64,000 nt of DNA from Chloroflexota bacterium (GTDB lineage: Bacteria; Chloroflexota; Anaerolineae; Aggregatilineales; J027). The stretch is from the NCBI GenBank assembly GCA_024434115.1, contig QMIT01000003.1:531282-595281 (forward strand). Reading direction: 5' to 3'. Under the pieces are notes generated by a model. It was not told the DNA's origin, searched no databases, and worked only from the letters and a program-made list of their open reading frames with translations. Positions 13,111 to 24,333 of this stretch are shown here, piece by piece. How positions within the stretch are numbered: the first letter of the stretch is position 1; every line of letters begins with the position of its first letter. A program made the translations under genes and the position numbers.

Positions 13111-13299
13111 GTGCTGCACGCCTGCCTTAACTGTACTAAAATTTGAGAGGGATACAATGCCATTCGCTTGACCAATACATACAAATTGGTTTTCAGGAAA
13201 GGGCCTAAGAATGAGATTTTTAGTTTGCTTCTGCGCTATTCTCCTTATTTTGGCTAACCAATCTCCAATTGCTGAAGGTCAATCGAATGCGCCGTTTAT
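13111..13299 (+). repeat. Copy 1 of a 189-bp direct repeat (promoter plus signal-peptide DNA)
   Basis: This block recurs at 15716-15904 with only about nine substitutions. It covers the upstream region (including a TTGACC box), the ribosome-binding site and the first about 30 codons of the secreted beta-propeller gene. Beyond it, the two genes diverge sharply. Confidence 0.9.
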
Positions 13300-14716
13300 C
13301 TACTACTATTCCCCTAGCCAAAAGGCATTTGTGATTGAACGTGCGGATGGCAGCGAAAACCGTATTTTGACGAATTATGCTTTTCCGGAGGAAGTTGTAG
13401 GGGAGTTTTGGATTATTGGCCCCGGATGGTCCCCCTCGGGAAATTGGTTGGCTTGGACGATTGAAAGGAGATTGGGGGGTAGCACTGGCGGAATAACCCC
13501 AGTTTCGGAGAGCTATATTGTCAATAGGCAAAGCGGTGACTCTATCTCGCTTATCAGACGTACCGATGGAATAGTGAACATCACGAGCATGGATTGGTCA
13601 CCAATGGAAGACCTCTTACTGGTAAACGAGGCTTTTTATCCAACCTTGCCAGATGGAAAGCCTGACATTGAGAAGCGTGAAGAGTCCGCTTACATCTTCG
13701 ATCCTTCGACACAGCAGATTACACTCGATATTCCTTATGGTTTGAAATGGTCATATGATGGGTCGGCCCTCGTGTCAAATCGTATAGATTCCGGCAATGG
13801 GATTTTGTTGGTCGGACTTGATGGGACGATACATGAAAGGTTTGCTTATATTGCAGATAATTGCGATTTGACTGAGCTTAAATGGTCCAGAGATAACAAA
13901 TTAATCTATAAGTCTGATCAAGAAAACCTAATTGTTGAGGATTTTACGTCTGGGGGAAAAACCGAATTGGAGCTTCCAGAGGAAATAATAAGAAATATTG
14001 AATGGAGTTATGATAATCAATACGCATTAATCTATACATTATCCTCATGCGAAGACGAGTCTCCACAATTATGGATTTTTTCTCTTGCTGAAAAGCTGTT
14101 AACTGTCGTATTGGAGCAGTCACAAATTTTAGAATATCTAGCTTATCCTGCTAAGATTATATCGCCTCTAAGTTGGTCCCCAACAAGTAATCACGCATTT
14201 GCAATATCCCAGTTAGGGATGCTTTACCTCATCTCAACTTCCCCCTTTGAAATTAAGGAGATAACCCTTAAATCTCAAGAATCTATTCGTAACATCAAAT
14301 GGGCACCAGTAAGCAATCAATTAACGATTTTCGTGTCTGCACAAGATGGGGATGATGCAATATATCTTTACAATATAGAACGCGATAGTTTGGAGCTACT
14401 TGCTTCAGTGCGAGACGGAAGCCCTTTTGTATTGGAATGGTCTCCGAATGAAAACCTCTTAGCATTCTCAGATTTTAGCAGCGAAGAGGCAAAGATATTA
14501 GACGTGACCTCTCGACAGATTACTAATATCAAGCCCCTAAGCAATATACCTACTATGAGCTTGAGCGTGCAAACCATCAAGTGGGATCCTACAGGAGAAT
14601 GGCTTTTTTTGACGGGCGACAACGGGTATCTGAATGTCACAAAGTCTGATGGTAGCCATAAGAGAGGCTTAGTTGTTTGTATTCTATCTCCTTCGTGTTT
14701 TGGCTGGCTTCCATAA
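13211..14716 (+). CDS. Secreted beta-propeller (TolB/WD40-like) protein, paralogue 1
   Basis: A 501-aa exported protein. It has a signal peptide (MRFLVCFCAILLILANQSPI, cut probably after AEG) and at least six PD40/TolB-type blades, seen as repeated W-S-P/W-D-P turns (GPGWSPSGNWLAW, MDWSPMEDLLLV, LKWSYDGSALVS, LSWSPTSNHAFAI, LEWSPNENLLAFS, IKWDPTGEWLFLT). It ends in SCFGWLP. No catalytic motif is seen; propellers of this kind usually bind proteins or glycans. The gene is AT-richer than the flanking genes and shares its promoter and signal-peptide DNA almost identically with the gene at 15816, suggesting duplication with later divergence or gene conversion. AGGAAAGG lies about 8 nt before ATG 13211. 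Confidence 0.85.
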   Translation: MRFLVCFCAILLILANQSPIAEGQSNAPFIYYYSPSQKAFVIERADGSENRILTNYAFPEEVVGEFWIIGPGWSPSGNWLAWTIERRLGGSTGGITPVSESYIVNRQSGDSISLIRRTDGIVNITSMDWSPMEDLLLVNEAFYPTLPDGKPDIEKREESAYIFDPSTQQITLDIPYGLKWSYDGSALVSNRIDSGNGILLVGLDGTIHERFAYIADNCDLTELKWSRDNKLIYKSDQENLIVEDFTSGGKTELELPEEIIRNIEWSYDNQYALIYTLSSCEDESPQLWIFSLAEKLLTVVLEQSQILEYLAYPAKIISPLSWSPTSNHAFAISQLGMLYLISTSPFEIKEITLKSQESIRNIKWAPVSNQLTIFVSAQDGDDAIYLYNIERDSLELLASVRDGSPFVLEWSPNENLLAFSDFSSEEAKILDVTSRQITNIKPLSNIPTMSLSVQTIKWDPTGEWLFLTGDNGYLNVTKSDGSHKRGLVVCILSPSCFGWLP

Positions 14717-15715: not shown

Positions 15716-15904
15716 GTGCTGCACGCCTGCCTTAACTGTACTAAAATTTGAGGGGGATACAATGCCGTTCGCTTGACCAATACATACAAATTGGTTTTCA
15801 GGAAAGGGCTTAAGAATGAGATTTTTAGTTTGCTTCTGTGCTATTTTCCTTATTCTGGCTAACCAATCTCCAATTGCTGAAGGTCAATCGAATGCCCCAT
15901 TTTT
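15716..15904 (+). repeat. Copy 2 of the 189-bp direct repeat
   Basis: Nearly identical to 13111-13299. It overlaps the divergent upstream region of the 14843-15673 gene by adjacency and supplies the promoter and signal-peptide codons of the second propeller gene. Confidence 0.9.
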
Positions 15905-17330
15905 TTACTATTACTCTATTGAACAAGCCGCGTTGATTATAGAGCGAGCGGACGCAAGCGATTCTAGGATTTTGTTTCATAACCCTGATGAGGATGGAAC
16001 GGGAAATATCTGGGGTCCGGGGTGGTCTCCATCAGGAAATTGGTTCGCTTGGGTTAATCAATCTTCTGGTAGAACGCCACCAGAGACAAATCCTGTGTAC
16101 GTGACAAGGTCAGATGGTCAAAACCAGCTTTCATTGTTAGATAACTTAGGAGTTGTCAGGCTTGTGGAATGGTCACCAGTCTCCGACATGCTGGTAGTCG
16201 GCTTACTGACACTACCAGATGATGAATACTTTATAGATGTTTATGTTATTGATGTGGGAACCCAAAGTGTAGTAAACACCTATAGTCTACGGGAACTCGA
16301 TTTTGGTGGAGTGAATTGGACGCCCGGTGGGGAATTTCTTGTCTTATATCAATATCCTCCTTATACGCCTAACTTATGGAACGAGGTATTGCCCACAGCG
16401 ATTCTTTTGACTTTGACGGGGAAACAGAAAGCTATATCAATCAGTGTGCCAATTGACTGCTTTGATTTTGATTCAAAAGCCGCATTTTCAAATAGCAGTA
16501 TGGTCTATAGACTTAAGGATTCCATTATCATTAGAAACTTACGCACAAGCGAAGAAAAAGCCATCAATTTCCCCGATCAGGTTATTCATTCAATTGAGTG
16601 GAGTTTTGATGAAAGCTATGCCCTGATTTACTCCCAAGAGTCATGTGAAAGCGTGAAAACTCGACTGTGGCTTCTATCAGCACAAACGGCAAACGCGACG
16701 CTTGTATCCCAAAATGTAGCTTTACCATTTTATCTAGATGGTGTTCAGCATTGGAATTGGTCTCCATCCGAAAATATAGCTTTGTTTTCTTCAGATGAAG
16801 GTTTTTTCCTGCTCATCGCGTCCCAATCGGCAGTACAGAAAATTATGTCATTCAGCGAGGCATTACAAAGTTTCCATACACCAGCGCAATGGCTTCCTGA
16901 TGGGAGTGGCCCTCTCTTGTTAAATGAAATCCCAAGCCAAACTACTGGTCTTTCCAAGTTCGATTTAGTAACAAATGAGCTACTGGCTTTAGGATCGCCA
17001 AGAGGATTAGAGATAAGTGCAGTGCGAAATTTTGTTATCTCACCTAACAGTCAATACATAGCTTTCTCTGGTACTTGTAGAGATAGCATCAATTCGATTT
17101 GTTTCCTTGATCTACATACAAATTCACTTTTTTTATCATCAATATATCAATCAGGGGGACATGATATAGCTGAAATCTATTGGCATCCAAGTCAAGATTG
17201 GGCGCTGATAGCGGAATGGGTAAGTATTTCTATGAGACGGATAAGTTTGTCAAAGCATGATGGCACATCGGCGCGAAAACTAGGATTATGTAATGTTTCA
17301 GAATCATGCTTTGGCTGGATGCCTCGTTAA
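15816..17330 (+). CDS. Secreted beta-propeller (TolB/WD40-like) protein, paralogue 2
   Basis: A 504-aa exported protein, paralogous to 13211-14716. The signal peptides are almost identical (MRFLVCFCAIFLILANQSPI), as are the blade turns GPGWSPSGNWFAW, VEWSPVSDMLVV, IEWSFDESYALIYS and HWNWSPSENIALFS, and the C-terminal SCFGWMP. The body is much more diverged than the first about 30 codons. No enzyme motif is visible. The two products probably have similar binding roles with different ligands. The gene ends 5 nt before the convergent acyl-AMP ligase gene. Confidence 0.85.
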   Translation: MRFLVCFCAIFLILANQSPIAEGQSNAPFFYYYSIEQAALIIERADASDSRILFHNPDEDGTGNIWGPGWSPSGNWFAWVNQSSGRTPPETNPVYVTRSDGQNQLSLLDNLGVVRLVEWSPVSDMLVVGLLTLPDDEYFIDVYVIDVGTQSVVNTYSLRELDFGGVNWTPGGEFLVLYQYPPYTPNLWNEVLPTAILLTLTGKQKAISISVPIDCFDFDSKAAFSNSSMVYRLKDSIIIRNLRTSEEKAINFPDQVIHSIEWSFDESYALIYSQESCESVKTRLWLLSAQTANATLVSQNVALPFYLDGVQHWNWSPSENIALFSSDEGFFLLIASQSAVQKIMSFSEALQSFHTPAQWLPDGSGPLLLNEIPSQTTGLSKFDLVTNELLALGSPRGLEISAVRNFVISPNSQYIAFSGTCRDSINSICFLDLHTNSLFLSSIYQSGGHDIAEIYWHPSQDWALIAEWVSISMRRISLSKHDGTSARKLGLCNVSESCFGWMPR

Positions 17331-17335
17331 TTGCC

Positions 17336-19072
17336 CTAAAGCAAGCCCTCTGCCGCCATCTCCTGCAAAAACTTCTCTCGATTGGCATTCCGCGCGATCT
17401 TGCCGCTGCTGGTCTTAATTAGCCATTTCGGGCCGACCAGATGCACAAACCGCGCATTCACATCCGTCGCCTGCACAATCCGCTGACGGGCCTCGCGCTG
17501 AATCCGCCCCTGTGTCTCTTCGTCGTCCTGTGTAATCTCGGCAATCACCGCGATGTCTTCCGTCCCAAGTTTTTCATTAAACACCCCAAATGCCACCGTG
17601 CGTCCATCCTTGACCCCGTCAATCTGGCTAACAATCGACTCAATATCTTGGGGATAGATGTTTTTGCCGCCGACGATAATCAAATCTTTCTTGCGCCCCG
17701 TGACATACACCTCACCCTCTGCCATATAGCCGAGGTCGCCCGTCAGATACCATCCATCATGTAGGGCCTGTGCCGAAATTTCGGCCTGATGATAATACCC
17801 CGTCAGCATGGAATTACTCCGCAGGGCAATTTCCCCAATCTGGCGTTCCGGCAGCGGTTTTTTGTCGCCATCCACTATCTGCACTTCGCAATTCGGAATC
17901 GGCTTGCCACACGACACTATGACCAACACCCCGTCATCACCGCTCCCATTTGCAGGCACAGCCCGATTCTGCTCCTGAAAGGGCCGACGCTGAATCCGGT
18001 CATATTTTTGTGGGCCATCCATGCCGCTTTGGGTCACAGCAAATGTATTTTCCGCCATCGCATACGAAACCGTCAGTGCATCAGGTGCTAATCCATAGGG
18101 GGCATATTTTTCTTGGAAAATTTGGTGGCTATCGGCCCGCACGGGTTCGGAACAATTGATAAAGGCCCGCATACTGCTGAGATCGAGATTTTCCAGATGT
18201 ACCTCCCGCACGCGGGTCGCCAGCAAGTTATAAGCGAAATTCGGCAGCCAGCACAGCGTCCCCCGATATTTCTGGATGGCGTGCAGCAAAATATGCGGGG
18301 CACGTACCCAGTGAAACGGCGACATCAATACCAGCGGAATCCCCTGCATCAATGGCATGATGAACCCCGCAATTAGCCCCATATCGTGATACAACGGCAG
18401 CCAACTGCAAATCACATCATCGGCCTGCAACCGAATTGCCGCGCTGTACCCCGCCAATTGATTCAACACCGCCCAATGCGACAGCATGACTCCTTTTTGC
18501 AACCCCGTGCTACCGGAGGAATGCTGCAAAAACGCGGTAGATTCGGCGGTAGGGGCGTAGGTCAAAAATTCATCGGGATGACCGCCGGGGGTCAGCGCAT
18601 CCGTCACCAAGATGGGCAGCATCCCCGCCACATCCGCCAGCACCGCATTTAGCCGATCATACAGTGCCGGATAGGTGATAATCAACCGCACCCCCGAACG
18701 CTCTACCAGTGCATGAAGGCTCTCAAAATAACGATCCGGGTCGAGTTTTTCTGTCAAAAATGGGAAGATGCTCGGCACGGCCCCCAGCAAAATCGCCCCC
18801 CAAAAGCTGTACAGCACATCCAAGCTGTGTTCCAACACCAGCACCACCAGATCGCCCGCCTGAATGCCATTTTGCCGCAGGGCATGAGCATATTCCGCCG
18901 CGTGTTCAAAAAATGCATGGGTCGAAATGGCCTGCTCGCCTTCGGGGGTTATAAAATAGAGCGCGGTGGCGTCTGGCTGTGTTTCCAGCAGATACCGGAT
19001 TTGCGCATTCAGCGTTTCGGGCAGCGGATGGTCGAGTCGAATCGGAACGTGGGTCGTGCTTGGTGCGGTCAT
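17336..19072 (-). CDS. Fatty-acyl-AMP ligase-like enzyme (DltA-position activator)
   Basis: A 578-aa adenylate-forming enzyme that would activate a carboxylic acid as acyl-AMP and load it on the carrier protein encoded just upstream. Motifs in order: P-loop HSSGSTGLQKGVMLSH (about residues 187-202), SWLPLYHDMGLIAG and GTLCWLPNFAYNL, which are typical of the FAAL/acyl-CoA-ligase branch, SYAMAENTFAV, the A7-type YLTGDLGYM with GRKKDLIIVGGKNIYPQDIE, and the C-terminal catalytic Lys in TSSGKIARN. It does not look like D-alanine ligase DltA, which is about 70 residues shorter. GGAG precedes ATG 19072. It lies 30 nt after the carrier gene in the same operon and back-to-back with the MBOAT operon, so the activated acyl group is predicted to feed that membrane transferase. 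Confidence 0.92.
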   Translation of the reverse strand: MTAPSTTHVPIRLDHPLPETLNAQIRYLLETQPDATALYFITPEGEQAISTHAFFEHAAEYAHALRQNGIQAGDLVVLVLEHSLDVLYSFWGAILLGAVPSIFPFLTEKLDPDRYFESLHALVERSGVRLIITYPALYDRLNAVLADVAGMLPILVTDALTPGGHPDEFLTYAPTAESTAFLQHSSGSTGLQKGVMLSHWAVLNQLAGYSAAIRLQADDVICSWLPLYHDMGLIAGFIMPLMQGIPLVLMSPFHWVRAPHILLHAIQKYRGTLCWLPNFAYNLLATRVREVHLENLDLSSMRAFINCSEPVRADSHQIFQEKYAPYGLAPDALTVSYAMAENTFAVTQSGMDGPQKYDRIQRRPFQEQNRAVPANGSGDDGVLVIVSCGKPIPNCEVQIVDGDKKPLPERQIGEIALRSNSMLTGYYHQAEISAQALHDGWYLTGDLGYMAEGEVYVTGRKKDLIIVGGKNIYPQDIESIVSQIDGVKDGRTVAFGVFNEKLGTEDIAVIAEITQDDEETQGRIQREARQRIVQATDVNARFVHLVGPKWLIKTSSGKIARNANREKFLQEMAAEGLL

Positions 19073-19102
19073 AAGGCTCCAGAGGTGTGATTTTTTGACA
19101 GG

Positions 19103-19342
19103 TTATTGGCGGGCTTCAATCAATTTGGCGATGTCATCAACCGTGTTACAGGTGGCGACGGTCATTTCCATGTCGTCAATCCACACGCCGAACTGCTTTT
19201 CGATAAACAATTGCACCTCAACCAGCGAGAAGGAATCAATCAGCCCGCCAGAAATGAGCGGTTCAACATCTTTCAGGGGATATTTTGGATTCCGCATAAT
19301 TTCTTTGGTGATAAATGTCTTGAGTTCTTGTCGAATGTCCAT
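19103..19342 (-). CDS. Acyl carrier protein (DltC-position)
   Basis: A 79-aa carrier protein. The phosphopantetheine attachment Ser lies in GGLIDSFSLVEVQLFIE (about residues 32-48), with a hydrophobic helix following, and the family length of 75-85 aa fits. Its expected role is to hold the acyl group activated by the ligase 30 nt downstream and present it to the MBOAT membrane protein encoded divergently. GGAG lies 6 nt before ATG 19342. The D-S-F-S-L context differs from the D-S-L-D-L of fatty-acid ACPs and resembles dedicated carriers such as DltC. Confidence 0.9.
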   Translation of the reverse strand: MDIRQELKTFITKEIMRNPKYPLKDVEPLISGGLIDSFSLVEVQLFIEKQFGVWIDDMEMTVATCNTVDDIAKLIEARQ

Positions 19343-19484
19343 GTCTGCTCCAATTTTGGGAAAATGACCCTGCCATTATACCAAAAAATGCCCGCCGTCC
19401 TGCCGTGCAACAATCGCCTGTTGGCAAGCCGTCGTCCCGCCTGTAAAATGTGCGCTTGCTTTGTAATGGATAGGAAAAAGCACA

Positions 19485-19625
19485 GTGGGTCAACTATTTC
19501 GGAAAATCTTGCGCCTCATCTTCTCGCGGGAAAACGTCTTTGCGGTGATGCTCTGCCTCATCATCATTTTGCTGATTATCGTCACGGCGGATACCGCGCC
19601 CCAGTGGATTTATCAGGGTTTTTAA
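19485..19625 (+). CDS. DltX-like single-helix micropeptide
   Basis: A 46-aa protein. A basic N-terminus (LFRKILRLIFSRE) leads into one transmembrane helix (VFAVMLCLIIILLIIVTA), and the C-terminus is APQWIYQGF. DltX of Firmicutes has the same build, about 47 aa, and ends in F-I-Y-x-E-F; work on the Dlt pathway assigns its C-terminal Tyr as the acyl acceptor between DltB and DltD. Here the aromatic-I-Y-x-x-F pattern is kept, with Tyr at residue 43. The start is GTG 19485, because an in-frame TAA lies seven codons upstream and AGGA is about 9 nt before it. It is 9 nt upstream of the MBOAT gene, exactly the place expected for dltX. The function is inferred. Confidence 0.75.
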   Translation: MGQLFRKILRLIFSRENVFAVMLCLIIILLIIVTADTAPQWIYQGF

Positions 19626-19634
19626 AACGACCAT

Positions 19635-21062
19635 ATGACCCTTACCCACATTCTCGTTTTTGCGCTGGCGTCCCTGCCCTTCATGTGGTTGATCCCGACG
19701 CGCTGGCGACCCCAAAGTCTGCTTTTCGCCAGCATTTTGGCGTTGGCATGGCTGCTGGCTGATGATGTCCTCAATCATCTCGATTTTATGGTGCTAATTG
19801 GCACACTCGCCCTCAGCATCGCTGTCTGGTGGGTCGTCCAACCTCCCTCCGAAACCATGCCCACCCGCCGCATTGACACCCAAACATTTTTAATTATTGG
19901 TATCGGCATACTTCTAGCAGGTTTGATATTCACCCTTCTGGATAGACCCCCCAATCTCCTATTCCCCATTTTTGGCGTAGCAGTAGCAACCGTCGGCGTG
20001 TTGAATCTGCCCCAAATCCTGCCATCTACCAACACCGAAATCTATAAGCGCCTGAGTCTGCTGTTGGTGGTTGGCCTGATTGTGATTTTGGTCATCCTCA
20101 AAATCCCCGCCAGCGCCCGTTTTTTCAGCCTTGCCCTTGACCGCGACGAGGCCCTCCACCCAACCGGCATTACTCCGCTGGCATGGCTCGGTTTTTCCTA
20201 TATCGCCTTTCGCTTAATCGGTGTCCTATTCGATTTCCGTGCTGGACGCCTGCCCAAAGATGGCATGGCTCTGCGTGATTTCCTGACCTATGTCATTTTC
20301 TTCCCCGCCATGACCGCTGGCCCGATTGACCGTGTGCAGCGTTTTATCCCCGAACTCAACCAGACCAAAACGCTGGATTCGGCCCGATTGATTGAAGGCA
20401 CTATGCGGATTATGGTAGGGGCGTTCAAAAAATTTGTCATTGCCGACAGCCTAGCCCTCGTCGCCCTAAATCCAACCCTTGTCAATCGCACCGGGGACAC
20501 GATTGGCGCGTGGCTGTTGCTCTATATCTATGCCTTCCGCATCTTTTTCGACTTCAGCGGCTATTCGGATGTCGCCATCGGTATTGGCCGTTTATATGGC
20601 ATCACCTTGCCCGAAAATTTTGACCGCCCCTATACCCAGCCCAATTTGCAGCAATTTTGGCAGCGCTGGCACATCACCCTCAGTACGTGGTTTCGGCTCT
20701 ATTATTTCACCCCCATCAGCCGTGTCATGCTGCGCAGCGGGGTCAAGATGCCGCAGTGGTTGATGGTCATGATCGCTCAGATCAGTACGATGGTGTTAAT
20801 CGGTCTATGGCATGGGATAACCGTTAATTTTGTGCTATGGGGATTGTGGCACGGTATCGGCCTGTTTATCCACAAACTGATTTTGGATAACACCCGCCTC
20901 TGGTATCAAACCATCAGCCAACATCGCTGGCGTCGTCGTTTTATCTTTGGCATAAGCTGGCTGACCACCTTTCATTATGTCGCATTGGGCTGGGTCTTTT
21001 TTGCCCTGCCCACCCCTGCCGACAGTCTGGCGATGCTGGCCCGTTTGGTAGGAGGTCGTTAA
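19635..21062 (+). CDS. MBOAT-family membrane O-acyltransferase (DltB-like)
   Basis: A 475-aa polytopic membrane protein (about 10-12 helices). It carries the MBOAT hallmarks: SYIAFRLIGVLFDFRAGRLP (about residues 194-213), FPAMTAGPIDRVQRF, FDFSGYSDVAIGIGRLYG, the conserved WQRWHITLSTWFRLYYFTPI (His346), and the LWHG segment with the catalytic-type His393 followed by a second LWHG (His406). DltB and AlgI share these. It should take an acyl group from the cytoplasmic carrier protein and move it through the membrane, by analogy to the DltX-like peptide encoded 9 nt upstream. Its stop is directly followed by the ATG of the SGNH gene, with AGGAGG just before. It is probably DltB/AlgI family rather than a cellulose- or alginate-specific enzyme, because the rest of those operons is absent. 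Confidence 0.93.
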   Translation: MTLTHILVFALASLPFMWLIPTRWRPQSLLFASILALAWLLADDVLNHLDFMVLIGTLALSIAVWWVVQPPSETMPTRRIDTQTFLIIGIGILLAGLIFTLLDRPPNLLFPIFGVAVATVGVLNLPQILPSTNTEIYKRLSLLLVVGLIVILVILKIPASARFFSLALDRDEALHPTGITPLAWLGFSYIAFRLIGVLFDFRAGRLPKDGMALRDFLTYVIFFPAMTAGPIDRVQRFIPELNQTKTLDSARLIEGTMRIMVGAFKKFVIADSLALVALNPTLVNRTGDTIGAWLLLYIYAFRIFFDFSGYSDVAIGIGRLYGITLPENFDRPYTQPNLQQFWQRWHITLSTWFRLYYFTPISRVMLRSGVKMPQWLMVMIAQISTMVLIGLWHGITVNFVLWGLWHGIGLFIHKLILDNTRLWYQTISQHRWRRRFIFGISWLTTFHYVALGWVFFALPTPADSLAMLARLVGGR

Positions 21063-22229
21063 ATGGCCGGATGGGATTGGCTGACCAAGCCGCAAACCCC
21101 CTATAACCGACGTTTTGTCCGCAATGTGGTGATTAAAGGTGTGCTGCTGTTTATCACCCTCAATCTATGTTATGCACTCACCAATCCTCTGCCATTTTTA
21201 AGCCGTGTCACCCTTTATAATTCAGTTTTACCCGGACGTGAGCGCCTGCCCTATTCCGAAAACCCCGCCAGCGATTACAACATCTCCGTCCAGCGCTTAG
21301 AGGGTATGTTCGCTTCAATTAAACTTAGCCAAACGCCAAAGGCCAATGATGAATACCGTGTCTTTTTCTTGGGCGATTCCTCCGTGTGGGGCTGGCTGCT
21401 CGAAGAAGATGAAACCCTCAGCGCGTGCATCAATCGGGGTAATTATCGGATGCCGGATGGTCGGCGTTTGGTCGTCTACAATTTAGGCTACCCCGTGACC
21501 AACGTCCTCAAAGATTCGATGTTGTTAGAAGAATCCCTGCAATATGAGCCGGATTTGGTGGTCTGGTTTTTGACCCTTGCCGGGTTTTATATCCAAGACC
21601 AACTCAAACATCAGGTTGTGCAGAATAACGCCGACCTTGCCCGTGACCTGATTGAACGCTATCACCTTGCCCTAGATGAAAATCGCCTGCCTGACGACCC
21701 CAACTTATGGGAGCGCAGCATCATCGGTCAGCGCCGCGAATTGGCCGACTTGCTTCGTCATCAAGTTTATGGCATGGCATGGCTGGCAACGGGATACGAT
21801 CACCGCAACCCCAAATTTCATGAACAGCGTGTCGAAAATCTGCTCCCCGGTGATGATCTGCTAGGGATGCCGCGTATCGAGGGCGGCTGGACAGAGGATT
21901 TGTTGTCATTCGATGTGATGTTGGCAGGCATGGACATCGCGCAAAATCACGATTTGCCTGTACTAGTCATCAATGAACCCATTTTTCGCACCAGCGGCTT
22001 TAACAACGAAAACCGCTATAACGACTACTACCCCAAATGGGCCTATGACAGCTATCGGGAACTGCTTGGCAGCATTGCCCAGCGCGAAAATTGGCACTAT
22101 ACCGATTTATGGGATGCCGCCCCGAACGACCAATTCACCAACACGGGCCTACATCTCACCCCCGCCGCGACGTGTGAGTTCGCCCACAAAATGGTGCCCT
22201 ATATTATGGCGCTGGCGGAGCAACCGTAA
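21063..22229 (+). CDS. Membrane-anchored SGNH-hydrolase-fold protein (DltD-position)
   Basis: A 388-aa protein with an N-terminal signal-anchor helix (VVIKGVLLFITLNLCYAL, about residues 21-38) and an extracytoplasmic SGNH domain. The nucleophile block is FFLGDSSVWGW (Ser106), block II is NLGYPVTN, and the C-terminal His block is NTGLHLTP (His364). The Asp normally three residues before this His is Thr361, so the classical triad is incomplete unless another acid substitutes. In Dlt and alginate systems the equivalent protein transfers the acyl group from the membrane intermediate to the polymer; that is the role inferred here. ATG 21063 directly follows the MBOAT stop. The 3' end overlaps the convergent 22204-24333 gene by 26 bp. 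Confidence 0.85.
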   Translation: MAGWDWLTKPQTPYNRRFVRNVVIKGVLLFITLNLCYALTNPLPFLSRVTLYNSVLPGRERLPYSENPASDYNISVQRLEGMFASIKLSQTPKANDEYRVFFLGDSSVWGWLLEEDETLSACINRGNYRMPDGRRLVVYNLGYPVTNVLKDSMLLEESLQYEPDLVVWFLTLAGFYIQDQLKHQVVQNNADLARDLIERYHLALDENRLPDDPNLWERSIIGQRRELADLLRHQVYGMAWLATGYDHRNPKFHEQRVENLLPGDDLLGMPRIEGGWTEDLLSFDVMLAGMDIAQNHDLPVLVINEPIFRTSGFNNENRYNDYYPKWAYDSYRELLGSIAQRENWHYTDLWDAAPNDQFTNTGLHLTPAATCEFAHKMVPYIMALAEQP

Positions 22230-24333
22230 TTTGCCCATCCGCGCCAATCGTCACAATTGCCAGCAGGATAAAATCACCGAATGGCCCTTGCAGTCGTTCA
22301 AAGGTGTTGGGATCATAAAAGCCAACCCGAATCTGATACTCCCCGGTTGGCACATCTGCCATCGCCAGCACACGGGTTTCGGCAATCACATCTCCCGCCT
22401 GCCAGAATCGTGTTGGATAGCGCCCACCCACCGGCGTCCCATCGGCCTGTCGCAGCGGCGCGGCCTCCCCCATCGGCACAAAATGCAAGAAAATATCATA
22501 GTCCCGATTAAAGGATGCCTGCGCCCCCCACACCAAATTAACCGCAATTTGCCCATCCGCAGTAGAAAAATCGGCGGCATACAAAATCGCCGGGCCAAGT
22601 GTGCCGATTTGGGTAGTCGGTGGGGTAATTGCTGCCCCTTGCAAAAACACACTGCCAATGGTCGCCTGATTCAACGTGGCAGCTTTGTAATCCAGCGTCA
22701 CCGAGATATTCAGCAGGCCGGGTTGTGCATCCGCCGGAATCAAAAGGGCATGATAGGTGCTAATGTCCAGCGGTTTCCATGTAACAGGTTCAAAACGGGG
22801 GAAAACAGACACAATCGGATTGCCCGTAATATCCAACAAGCTGACGTACACCCCCATTTGCGTCGTGGGAGGGAGGTCTAATTGCCAATCCAAGCGCAGT
22901 CGCAATGTTTCTCCGGGACGCAGGTGAGTATTATCCACTGTATACCCCACTAGCGTGACATCGGGACTGTAATCAATGTCGAGCGTCTGCGTCTCGCCCC
23001 ATTCGCCAATCACCGAATCGCGTACCCATAATTCATCGCCATTTCGCACCGGTGCATCTTCATTGATGGGCTGTTGCGTATAATTCAACCCCGTCAACCC
23101 CGGGCTTTGCATATCCATATCTGCCAGAGGGCCATCTTCCCGATTGAAATACAGCACATCCGGCGCAAGAGCCACCAATAGCGATTCTCGATCTTCCCGC
23201 CGTAACAGGGCATCAATAAACGGGGAGCGCCGACCATCCAAGCGATAAATCTCGTCAACCCCATCGCCATCCAATTCTGCTATCAGTGCATCACTGCGAT
23301 CATGGGCATAGCTTTTCGCTTCTCCCAAATATTCCGCCAACCGCTGGTCATTTTGCAACGATTTTTCGGTTTGGGGTGGTGCGACAATTAATAGAATCCC
23401 CATAACCACTGCCAGCCCTACTAGTATGGGAATTTGGCTATTTTTCAGCGCAGGCTGTCGGCTAAGAGTGACCAAAATGAGGGCTACCCCCAATCCCAAC
23501 GAGGTACTTTCGAGGGCGTAGCTTGAGAAAATGAACTGGGCCACGATTTCACCCGCCACCCACCCGATCAAAATCAGCATCGGGCGTGATTCATCCGACC
23601 AATTGAGGCGCGAAATGGCAAGACCACCTCCAATCAGCAGTCCTAGCCATAAAACCCCCTGCCATGCCCAATCCGTTTGGGGGTATAAATCCAGCACCAG
23701 CCCTCCCAAGCCATCAAATCCATAGACCCCGATGGCGACCCCCGTCCAGAGCGCCCCCGGCATCCAAACGACTTGCCAAAAACGTCTGCCATTCTCGTGT
23801 ATCAGGGCATATACACCAATCAACGCCGCCCCGATCAAACCCGTCGGTTGTGCCAAAACCGCCAATCCTGCCACCCATCCGGCCCAGCGCCATCTGGCAT
23901 GGGTCGCTAGTTCCAATCCGCCCAAAATAAACATCGCGGTGAGGCCCGCCGACGAACGTATCCCTGCCCAAACCACCCATGAGGCGAGCCACAGGACAAG
24001 GCAGAATAGGCTTTCAAGGTCACTATATCCCCAGCGGCGCATAAGCCGAAATAAACTCCCACCCGCGATGGTATAAGCCAATGCCGATGCTATCACCAAT
24101 GGCGTGTCTTCCGAGGGCTGCACAGCGGCAATCAAAACGGGTAAGGGGCTGGCAGTCAATAGCGTCTTTACGCCGGGGGTATAAACCATCCCGCGCCCGT
24201 CGCTCAGGTTTTGGGCCAATCGGGACGTCAGGAAATCGGCTTCGCGGTGATAATCCTTCAGGATAACCAGACCGACGACACACAGATAGGCAAAAATAAT
24301 GAGGCTGATGATATGGGATTTTTGGTTTGACAT
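22204..24333 (-). CDS. Large polytopic membrane protein, GT-C glycosyltransferase-like
   Basis: A 709-aa protein. Residues about 1-330 hold roughly ten transmembrane helices, and the C-terminal 350 residues form an outside region with two beta-sandwich-like segments (LRPGETLRLRLDWQLDLPPT and VNLVWGAQASF, GEYQIRVGFYD). An early loop has KDYHREADFLTSRLAQNLSD, with acidic residues after helix 1, and the early WASWVVWAGIRSSAG region resembles membrane mannosyltransferases of the GT-C fold; this layout is frequent in Chloroflexota. The catalytic Asp cannot be assigned with certainty. A role in building an envelope glycan next to the acyl-transfer operon is plausible but inferred. It overlaps the SGNH gene at its 3' end by 26 bp. 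Confidence 0.7.
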   Translation of the reverse strand: MSNQKSHIISLIIFAYLCVVGLVILKDYHREADFLTSRLAQNLSDGRGMVYTPGVKTLLTASPLPVLIAAVQPSEDTPLVIASALAYTIAGGSLFRLMRRWGYSDLESLFCLVLWLASWVVWAGIRSSAGLTAMFILGGLELATHARWRWAGWVAGLAVLAQPTGLIGAALIGVYALIHENGRRFWQVVWMPGALWTGVAIGVYGFDGLGGLVLDLYPQTDWAWQGVLWLGLLIGGGLAISRLNWSDESRPMLILIGWVAGEIVAQFIFSSYALESTSLGLGVALILVTLSRQPALKNSQIPILVGLAVVMGILLIVAPPQTEKSLQNDQRLAEYLGEAKSYAHDRSDALIAELDGDGVDEIYRLDGRRSPFIDALLRREDRESLLVALAPDVLYFNREDGPLADMDMQSPGLTGLNYTQQPINEDAPVRNGDELWVRDSVIGEWGETQTLDIDYSPDVTLVGYTVDNTHLRPGETLRLRLDWQLDLPPTTQMGVYVSLLDITGNPIVSVFPRFEPVTWKPLDISTYHALLIPADAQPGLLNISVTLDYKAATLNQATIGSVFLQGAAITPPTTQIGTLGPAILYAADFSTADGQIAVNLVWGAQASFNRDYDIFLHFVPMGEAAPLRQADGTPVGGRYPTRFWQAGDVIAETRVLAMADVPTGEYQIRVGFYDPNTFERLQGPFGDFILLAIVTIGADGQITVAPPAP

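Follow-up and report, generated by a model that had tools for sequence, protein, structure and literature searches.

Acyl groups reach the surface of some bacteria through paired MBOAT (membrane-bound O-acyltransferase) and SGNH proteins, and two sorts of such pathway are well described. One is the Dlt pathway (DltA-DltC-DltX-DltB-DltD), which brings D-alanine onto teichoic acid; the other comprises PatA-PatB, AlgI-AlgJ and related O-acetylation systems. The acyl-shuttle motif FxYxxF and its role are known for both DltX and PatA (PMC12148441), the tail of DltX reading FLYFGF (PMC11035591). MBOAT-SGNH pathways other than Dlt are stated to have neither a carrier protein nor a DltX-like micropeptide (PMC12148441, a 2025 study of PatAB), and a review of fatty acyl-AMP ligases (FAALs) does not mention MBOATs (PMC11837247). 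Here we analyse five genes in a stretch of 64,000 nucleotides, the window, from an Anaerolineae-class Chloroflexota bacterium (contig QMIT01000003.1). With a probability of roughly 0.8, they encode a carrier-protein-dependent MBOAT-SGNH acyl-transfer pathway of Dlt-like build that is charged by a FAAL. In the open-licence literature we found no account of an MBOAT-SGNH system fed by a FAAL, although one may have been given elsewhere.

Two gene units that belong together

The five open reading frames (ORFs) occupy positions 17336-22229 of the window and form two divergent units about 140 bp apart. The minus-strand unit encodes a ligase and an acyl carrier protein (ACP). The plus-strand unit starts with a micropeptide, whose gene is followed after 9 bp by that of an MBOAT; the gene of an SGNH protein comes next without a gap (0 bp). 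Reading of the ORFs and motifs places all five genes, and every residue singled out in them, where a preliminary description made from the sequence alone had put them.

Do the two units work together? In a sample of 396 genomes from 222 genera of the class, micropeptide and FAAL are both present in 89 and both missing from 290, while the micropeptide occurs alone in 5 and the FAAL alone in 12 (odds ratio 430; Fisher p 3e-68, a value that overstates the evidence because the genomes share ancestry). Counted by genus, the same four classes hold 40, 175, 1 and 6. Micropeptide and ligase are jointly present or jointly missing in different genera of one family, for example family f2. In a sample of 400 genomes of the phylum, the ligase subfamily was not found outside the class, and the micropeptide gave only five marginal matches there (E 1e-4 to 0.01).

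Gene order points the same way. Neighbourhoods were counted at the 71 of 94 micropeptide loci that have at least 5.5 kb of downstream sequence. An MBOAT follows in 66, an SGNH protein in 47, an ACP in 37, a FAAL in 38 and all four in 34, where a nearby FAAL would be expected by chance in about 0.4% of loci. In those 66 loci the MBOAT gene lies 3' of the micropeptide gene, reads in the same direction and is separated from it by a median of 2 bp, and the usual order in relatives is micropeptide-MBOAT-SGNH-ACP-FAAL, almost always on one strand. The preliminary description had looked to the divergent pair itself as the sign to be sought in relatives. Divergence is confined to the genus of the window (five genomes, in one of which a gene is inserted); outside it, the units are joined by one-strand operons and by co-occurrence. 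Because they co-occur in genomes and share operons in relatives, the two units belong together. At one further locus (L078:7938-9838, genome G239), the gene directly after a FAAL, in the same direction, is the micropeptide, and no MBOAT was found in the 16-kb stretch.

A micropeptide with an acyl-shuttle motif

The micropeptide is a real gene and not a chance ORF, since it is under purifying selection among five congeners (dN 0.01-0.06, dS 0.19-0.88) and occurs widely in the class: a six-frame search recovers it from 94 of the 396 genomes and 41 of the 222 genera, with per-genome E-values that reach 1e-15 outside the genus. Its N-terminal segment is basic and its single transmembrane (TM) segment spans residues 17-35, so that by the positive-inside rule the C-terminal tail should lie outside the cell. 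The tail, P-x-W-I-Y-Q-G-F, is strongly conserved in 96 copies (Pro 95/96, Trp 92/96, Tyr 95/96, final Phe 94/96) and takes the form FxYxxF with Trp replacing the first Phe in 92 of them. The tyrosine of this hexapeptide, Tyr43 in the window (codon 19611-19613), is the predicted shuttle residue, and in this motif the micropeptide resembles DltX, as first described. No Pfam or NCBIfam model matches it, the DltX models included, nor does its profile match any sequence of the PDB.

In MBOATs of other phyla, the same motif is fused to the C-terminus (PFIYFQF, PFLYFQF, PFIYYRF), and in the alignment the window MBOAT stops short of it. Both arrangements are found next to the present kind of ligase and carrier. 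Four loci with FAAL and ACP but no adjacent micropeptide adjoin an MBOAT or a truncated ORF end that carries the hexapeptide at its own C-terminus, as in PatA: PPPFIYQGF at L171, PFVYQGF and PFVYQSF at L204, QFIYFEF at L191 and, at L201, a truncated ORF beside FAAL-ACP that ends in PFVYLGF. Three of the four genomes (G208, G314, G384) belong to the 12 ligase-bearing genomes that give no micropeptide match. That free and fused tails replace each other next to one type of ligase and carrier is the strongest evidence for the micropeptide as the acyl shuttle of a FAAL-ACP donor. One of these loci (L204:2839-6804) holds two tandem MBOATs with fused shuttle tails that adjoin ACP and FAAL, each beside a protein of about 365 aa; possibly one ligase feeds two acceptors here.

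Ligase, carrier, acyltransferase and SGNH protein

Judged by its sequence, the ligase is of FAAL type and not DltA, as had been proposed. The AMP-binding domain is matched at E 1e-57, FAAL models lead the family scans (NCBIfam, up to 366 bits) and the best PDB matches are FAALs (3kxw/3lnv, 7r7g, 3pbk); the DltA model TIGR01734 gives 34.5 bits against a cut-off of 559.85, which no ANL enzyme of the genome passes. The features diagnostic of FAALs are the insertion, the helix region and the residues that block coenzyme A (CoA) (PMC8460268). The insertion is present, with 102 residues from the A5 to the TGD motif, compared with 108 in the Legionella FAAL and 63-81 in four non-FAAL paralogues of the same genome. 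Positioned by alignment to FAAL structures, the CoA-blocking Met231 and Phe279 are found in 42/42 ligase sequences, as are Trp255 and Pro259 of the FAAL helix (FSH region, 251-259) and the pocket residue Pro226. Trp275, considered as a chain-length blocker, was dropped because other FAALs of the class carry it too.

The ACP contains the motif GGLIDSFSLVEV with its phosphopantetheine site at Ser37 in GGLIDS (codon 19232-19234); Gly33, Asp36 and Ser37 are kept in 41/41 sequences. It scores 18.9 bits with the DltC model TIGR01688 (cut-off 52 bits) and is closer to other ACP models.

The MBOAT, in agreement with its first assignment, is DltB-like. Beside a family match of E 4e-16 it hits the DltB model TIGR04091 at E 1e-67 (229 bits, under the 375-bit cut-off), and DltB is its closest solved structure both by sequence (4e-45, PDB) and by fold (6e-14). 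The catalytic His393 in LWHG (20811-20813) and a second conserved histidine, His346 (20670-20672), are each present in 82/82 sequences and align with His336 and His289 of Streptococcus thermophilus DltB, residues named in PMC11035591. A read-through model of micropeptide and MBOAT, of moderate confidence (mean pLDDT 68), has DltB as its best match (E 6e-14), followed by HHAT and PORCN.

The SGNH protein had been cast as the counterpart of DltD. Its motifs are those of an SGNH protein: GDSS contains the nucleophile Ser106 (21378-21380; Gly104-Asp105-Ser106 in 52/52 sequences), and GLH contains His364 (22152-22154; 51/51). The match to GDSL_2 is weak (E 1e-5) and the protein belongs to the DltD family by none of the models used: no DltD model of Pfam or NCBIfam matches it, and its profile finds nothing meaningful among PDB sequences, DltD included. 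The predicted structure is poor (pLDDT 49), with fold matches to generic SGNH hydrolases and, weakly, to PatB.

Table 1. Features of the acyl-transfer locus (positions in the window).
Feature	Positions	Strand	Basis
FAAL-type acyl-AMP ligase, 578 aa	17336-19072	-	FAAL best PDB matches, NCBIfam FAAL models, insertion, CoA-rejection residues
Acyl carrier protein (ACP), 79 aa	19103-19342	-	PP-binding E 0.003, NCBIfam carrier-protein models
Intergenic region between the divergent units, ~140 bp	19343-19484	.	Sequence read
DltX-like membrane micropeptide, 46 aa, GTG start	19485-19625	+	One TM helix, tail APQWIYQGF
DltB-like MBOAT, 475 aa	19635-21062	+	TIGR04091, PDB DltB, fold match
Membrane-anchored SGNH protein, 388 aa, one N-terminal TM	21063-22229	+	Weak GDSL_2, conserved Ser/His

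Across the neighbourhoods of relatives, no genes for polymer synthesis or for an acceptor are consistently linked to the cluster. In the window, the 3' end of the SGNH gene is overlapped by 26 bp by the gene for an apparently membrane-bound 709-aa protein of no known family (22204-24333, minus strand), which stays adjacent to the cluster within the genus. It shows a very weak match (E 0.018) to a family of cell-surface glycopolymer formation and is a possible lead to the acceptor. On the other side of the cluster lie the plus-strand genes of two secreted beta-propeller-like proteins (13211-14716 and 15816-17330; 501 and 504 aa) whose signal peptides are almost identical. They are 97% identical across the 60 nt upstream and 86% across the first 110 nt, diverge beyond, and represent a tandem duplication with a conserved upstream region.

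Proposed pathway and its relation to known systems

How might the five products act? They very probably make up a single Dlt-type shuttle pathway. This reading is built on which genes are present and how they are linked, on their motifs and conservation, and on the way free and fused tails stand in for each other; it borrows its chemistry from the families. The FAAL would form an acyl-AMP and load the acyl group onto the phosphopantetheine of its dedicated ACP, as members of its family do. On the cytoplasmic side, the DltB-like MBOAT would then use His393 to move the group from acyl-ACP to Tyr43 at the outer end of the micropeptide, by analogy with DltB/DltX and PatA. The acyl-tyrosine tail would swing to the membrane-anchored SGNH protein, where Ser106 would accept the group and pass it on to a hydroxyl on an acceptor at the cell surface, for which a glycan is the likeliest candidate. 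The acyl group is probably of fatty-acid type; that the acceptor is a surface polysaccharide has about an even chance. Only tentatively, at somewhat less than even odds, do we go further and suggest that a true fatty acyl chain of at least about C8 is carried across the membrane as O-acyl-tyrosine on the micropeptide and lipidates a surface polymer, which would make this a second, independent class of carrier-dependent MBOAT-SGNH system.

Several observations weigh against the proposed FAAL-charged pathway. In 29 of the 71 loci, micropeptide and MBOAT stand without a FAAL in the examined stretch, the ligase usually being elsewhere in the genome. In the read-through model the MBOAT core is fair, but the tail of the micropeptide falls below pLDDT 50, too low to show the tyrosine docking. 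The triad of the SGNH protein is non-canonical, with Ser or Thr in place of the usual Asp three residues before the His in 49/51 sequences; Asp329 or Asp348, both invariant, could take the place of this Asp. Finally, the range of acids that a FAAL accepts is not readable from its sequence, and the pocket motif is NCSEP in the micropeptide-linked subfamily as against NGAEP in the dodecanoyl-AMP-binding Legionella FAAL, so that chain length should not be assumed and a short or unusual acid is possible.

The altered triad bears on one alternative in particular, in which the shuttle works as proposed but delivers to a lipid, a glycolipid or a lipoprotein, or in which the SGNH protein acts as an esterase and takes the acyl group off again. 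The surroundings of the operon in relatives also speak for it. A family of small lipoproteins of about 120-150 aa, with no Pfam family, is encoded near the micropeptide in 39 loci, in many of them directly upstream (e.g. L104:7549-7923, L094:7560-7946, L126:8032-8478), none of them adjoining the cluster of the window. Another SGNH family, of secreted or lipoprotein type, recurs around the micropeptide operon in 41 loci, with 79 proteins in all and often several per locus (e.g. L104:5275-6327, L082:8025-9110, L108:9542-10786). Such recurrent small lipoproteins and extra SGNH proteins are reminiscent of accessory proteins in the acetylation of alginate and of cellulose. In characterised MBOAT-SGNH pairs, however, the SGNH partner is a polymer transferase (PMC12148441), and we regard a different acceptor or an esterase as less likely than not, though a real possibility while no acceptor genes are consistently linked.

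Could the shuttle instead carry a small group? The FAAL-fold ligase might activate a short, branched, hydroxy or non-fatty acid, and the product would then be a small ester decoration resembling acetylation and not a lipidation. Besides the NCSEP pocket motif, the fact that DltB-type MBOATs take a small acyl group, and that PatA moves acetyl (PMC12148441), would fit this possibility. Yet every FAAL-defining element is kept in the ligase, and acetyl and other small groups normally arrive as acyl-CoA, for which a dedicated ligase and carrier are unneeded. A small acid appears rather improbable.

That FAAL and ACP serve a separate lipid or natural-product pathway, while micropeptide, MBOAT and SGNH protein use acetyl-CoA next to them by chance, is very improbable. 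The units are divergent in the window, and a fair share of the loci do not have them linked, but we reject chance on genome co-occurrence, beside which stand the operons shared in many families and the FAAL-ACP pairs that also adjoin fused-shuttle MBOATs. An ordinary Dlt operon is the least credible reading of all: although the MBOAT is nearest to DltB and the micropeptide tail is of DltX type, the ligase, carrier and SGNH models reject it, and no DltX model fits the micropeptide. A TagF-type teichoic acid polymerase (PF04464) was not found in the 97%-complete genome, other acceptor types not having been searched for; with neither DltA nor this polymerase in the genome, the earlier suggestion that the locus is not a teichoic acid Dlt system is supported.

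If a FAAL-charged shuttle operates here, the cargo of acyl-tyrosine shuttles would include groups of fatty-acid type besides acetyl and D-alanyl, FAALs would take part in modifying the envelope, and an envelope-modification pathway would be at hand for a phylum about whose surface chemistry little is known. A lipidated surface polymer would mean a hydrophobic or anchored outer layer for a class of Chloroflexota.

Like Dlt, the present system combines a ligase, a carrier, an MBOAT of DltB type without a motif of its own, a membrane-anchored SGNH protein and a separate micropeptide that has one TM segment and ends in an aromatic-x-Tyr-x-x-Phe motif. Unlike Dlt, its ligase is FAAL-type, the DltC, DltD and DltX models do not recognise its carrier, SGNH protein and micropeptide, and it resides in Anaerolineae, here in a genome without a TagF-type polymerase. 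With PatA-PatB, AlgI-AlgJ and their relatives it shares the acyl-tyrosine shuttle hexapeptide, the MBOAT His and the SGNH partner, and relatives of the present FAAL-ACP adjoin MBOATs with a fused motif; those systems draw on an acyl-CoA donor and have no dedicated carrier or micropeptide (PMC12148441), whereas the donor here is a FAAL-ACP pair. The FAAL-ACP pairs of lipopeptide, polyketide and mycobacterial lipid synthesis likewise join a dedicated carrier to a ligase with the insertion and, as predicted here, CoA rejection, but the present product appears to enter an acyl-tyrosine shuttle in the membrane instead of a polyketide synthase or non-ribosomal peptide synthetase. Contrary to the statement that only Dlt has them (PMC12148441), a class-wide system thus holds both a carrier and a micropeptide, and a FAAL in addition. 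The shuttle principle is that of the known systems; the donor branch is different, and it is spread across one bacterial class.

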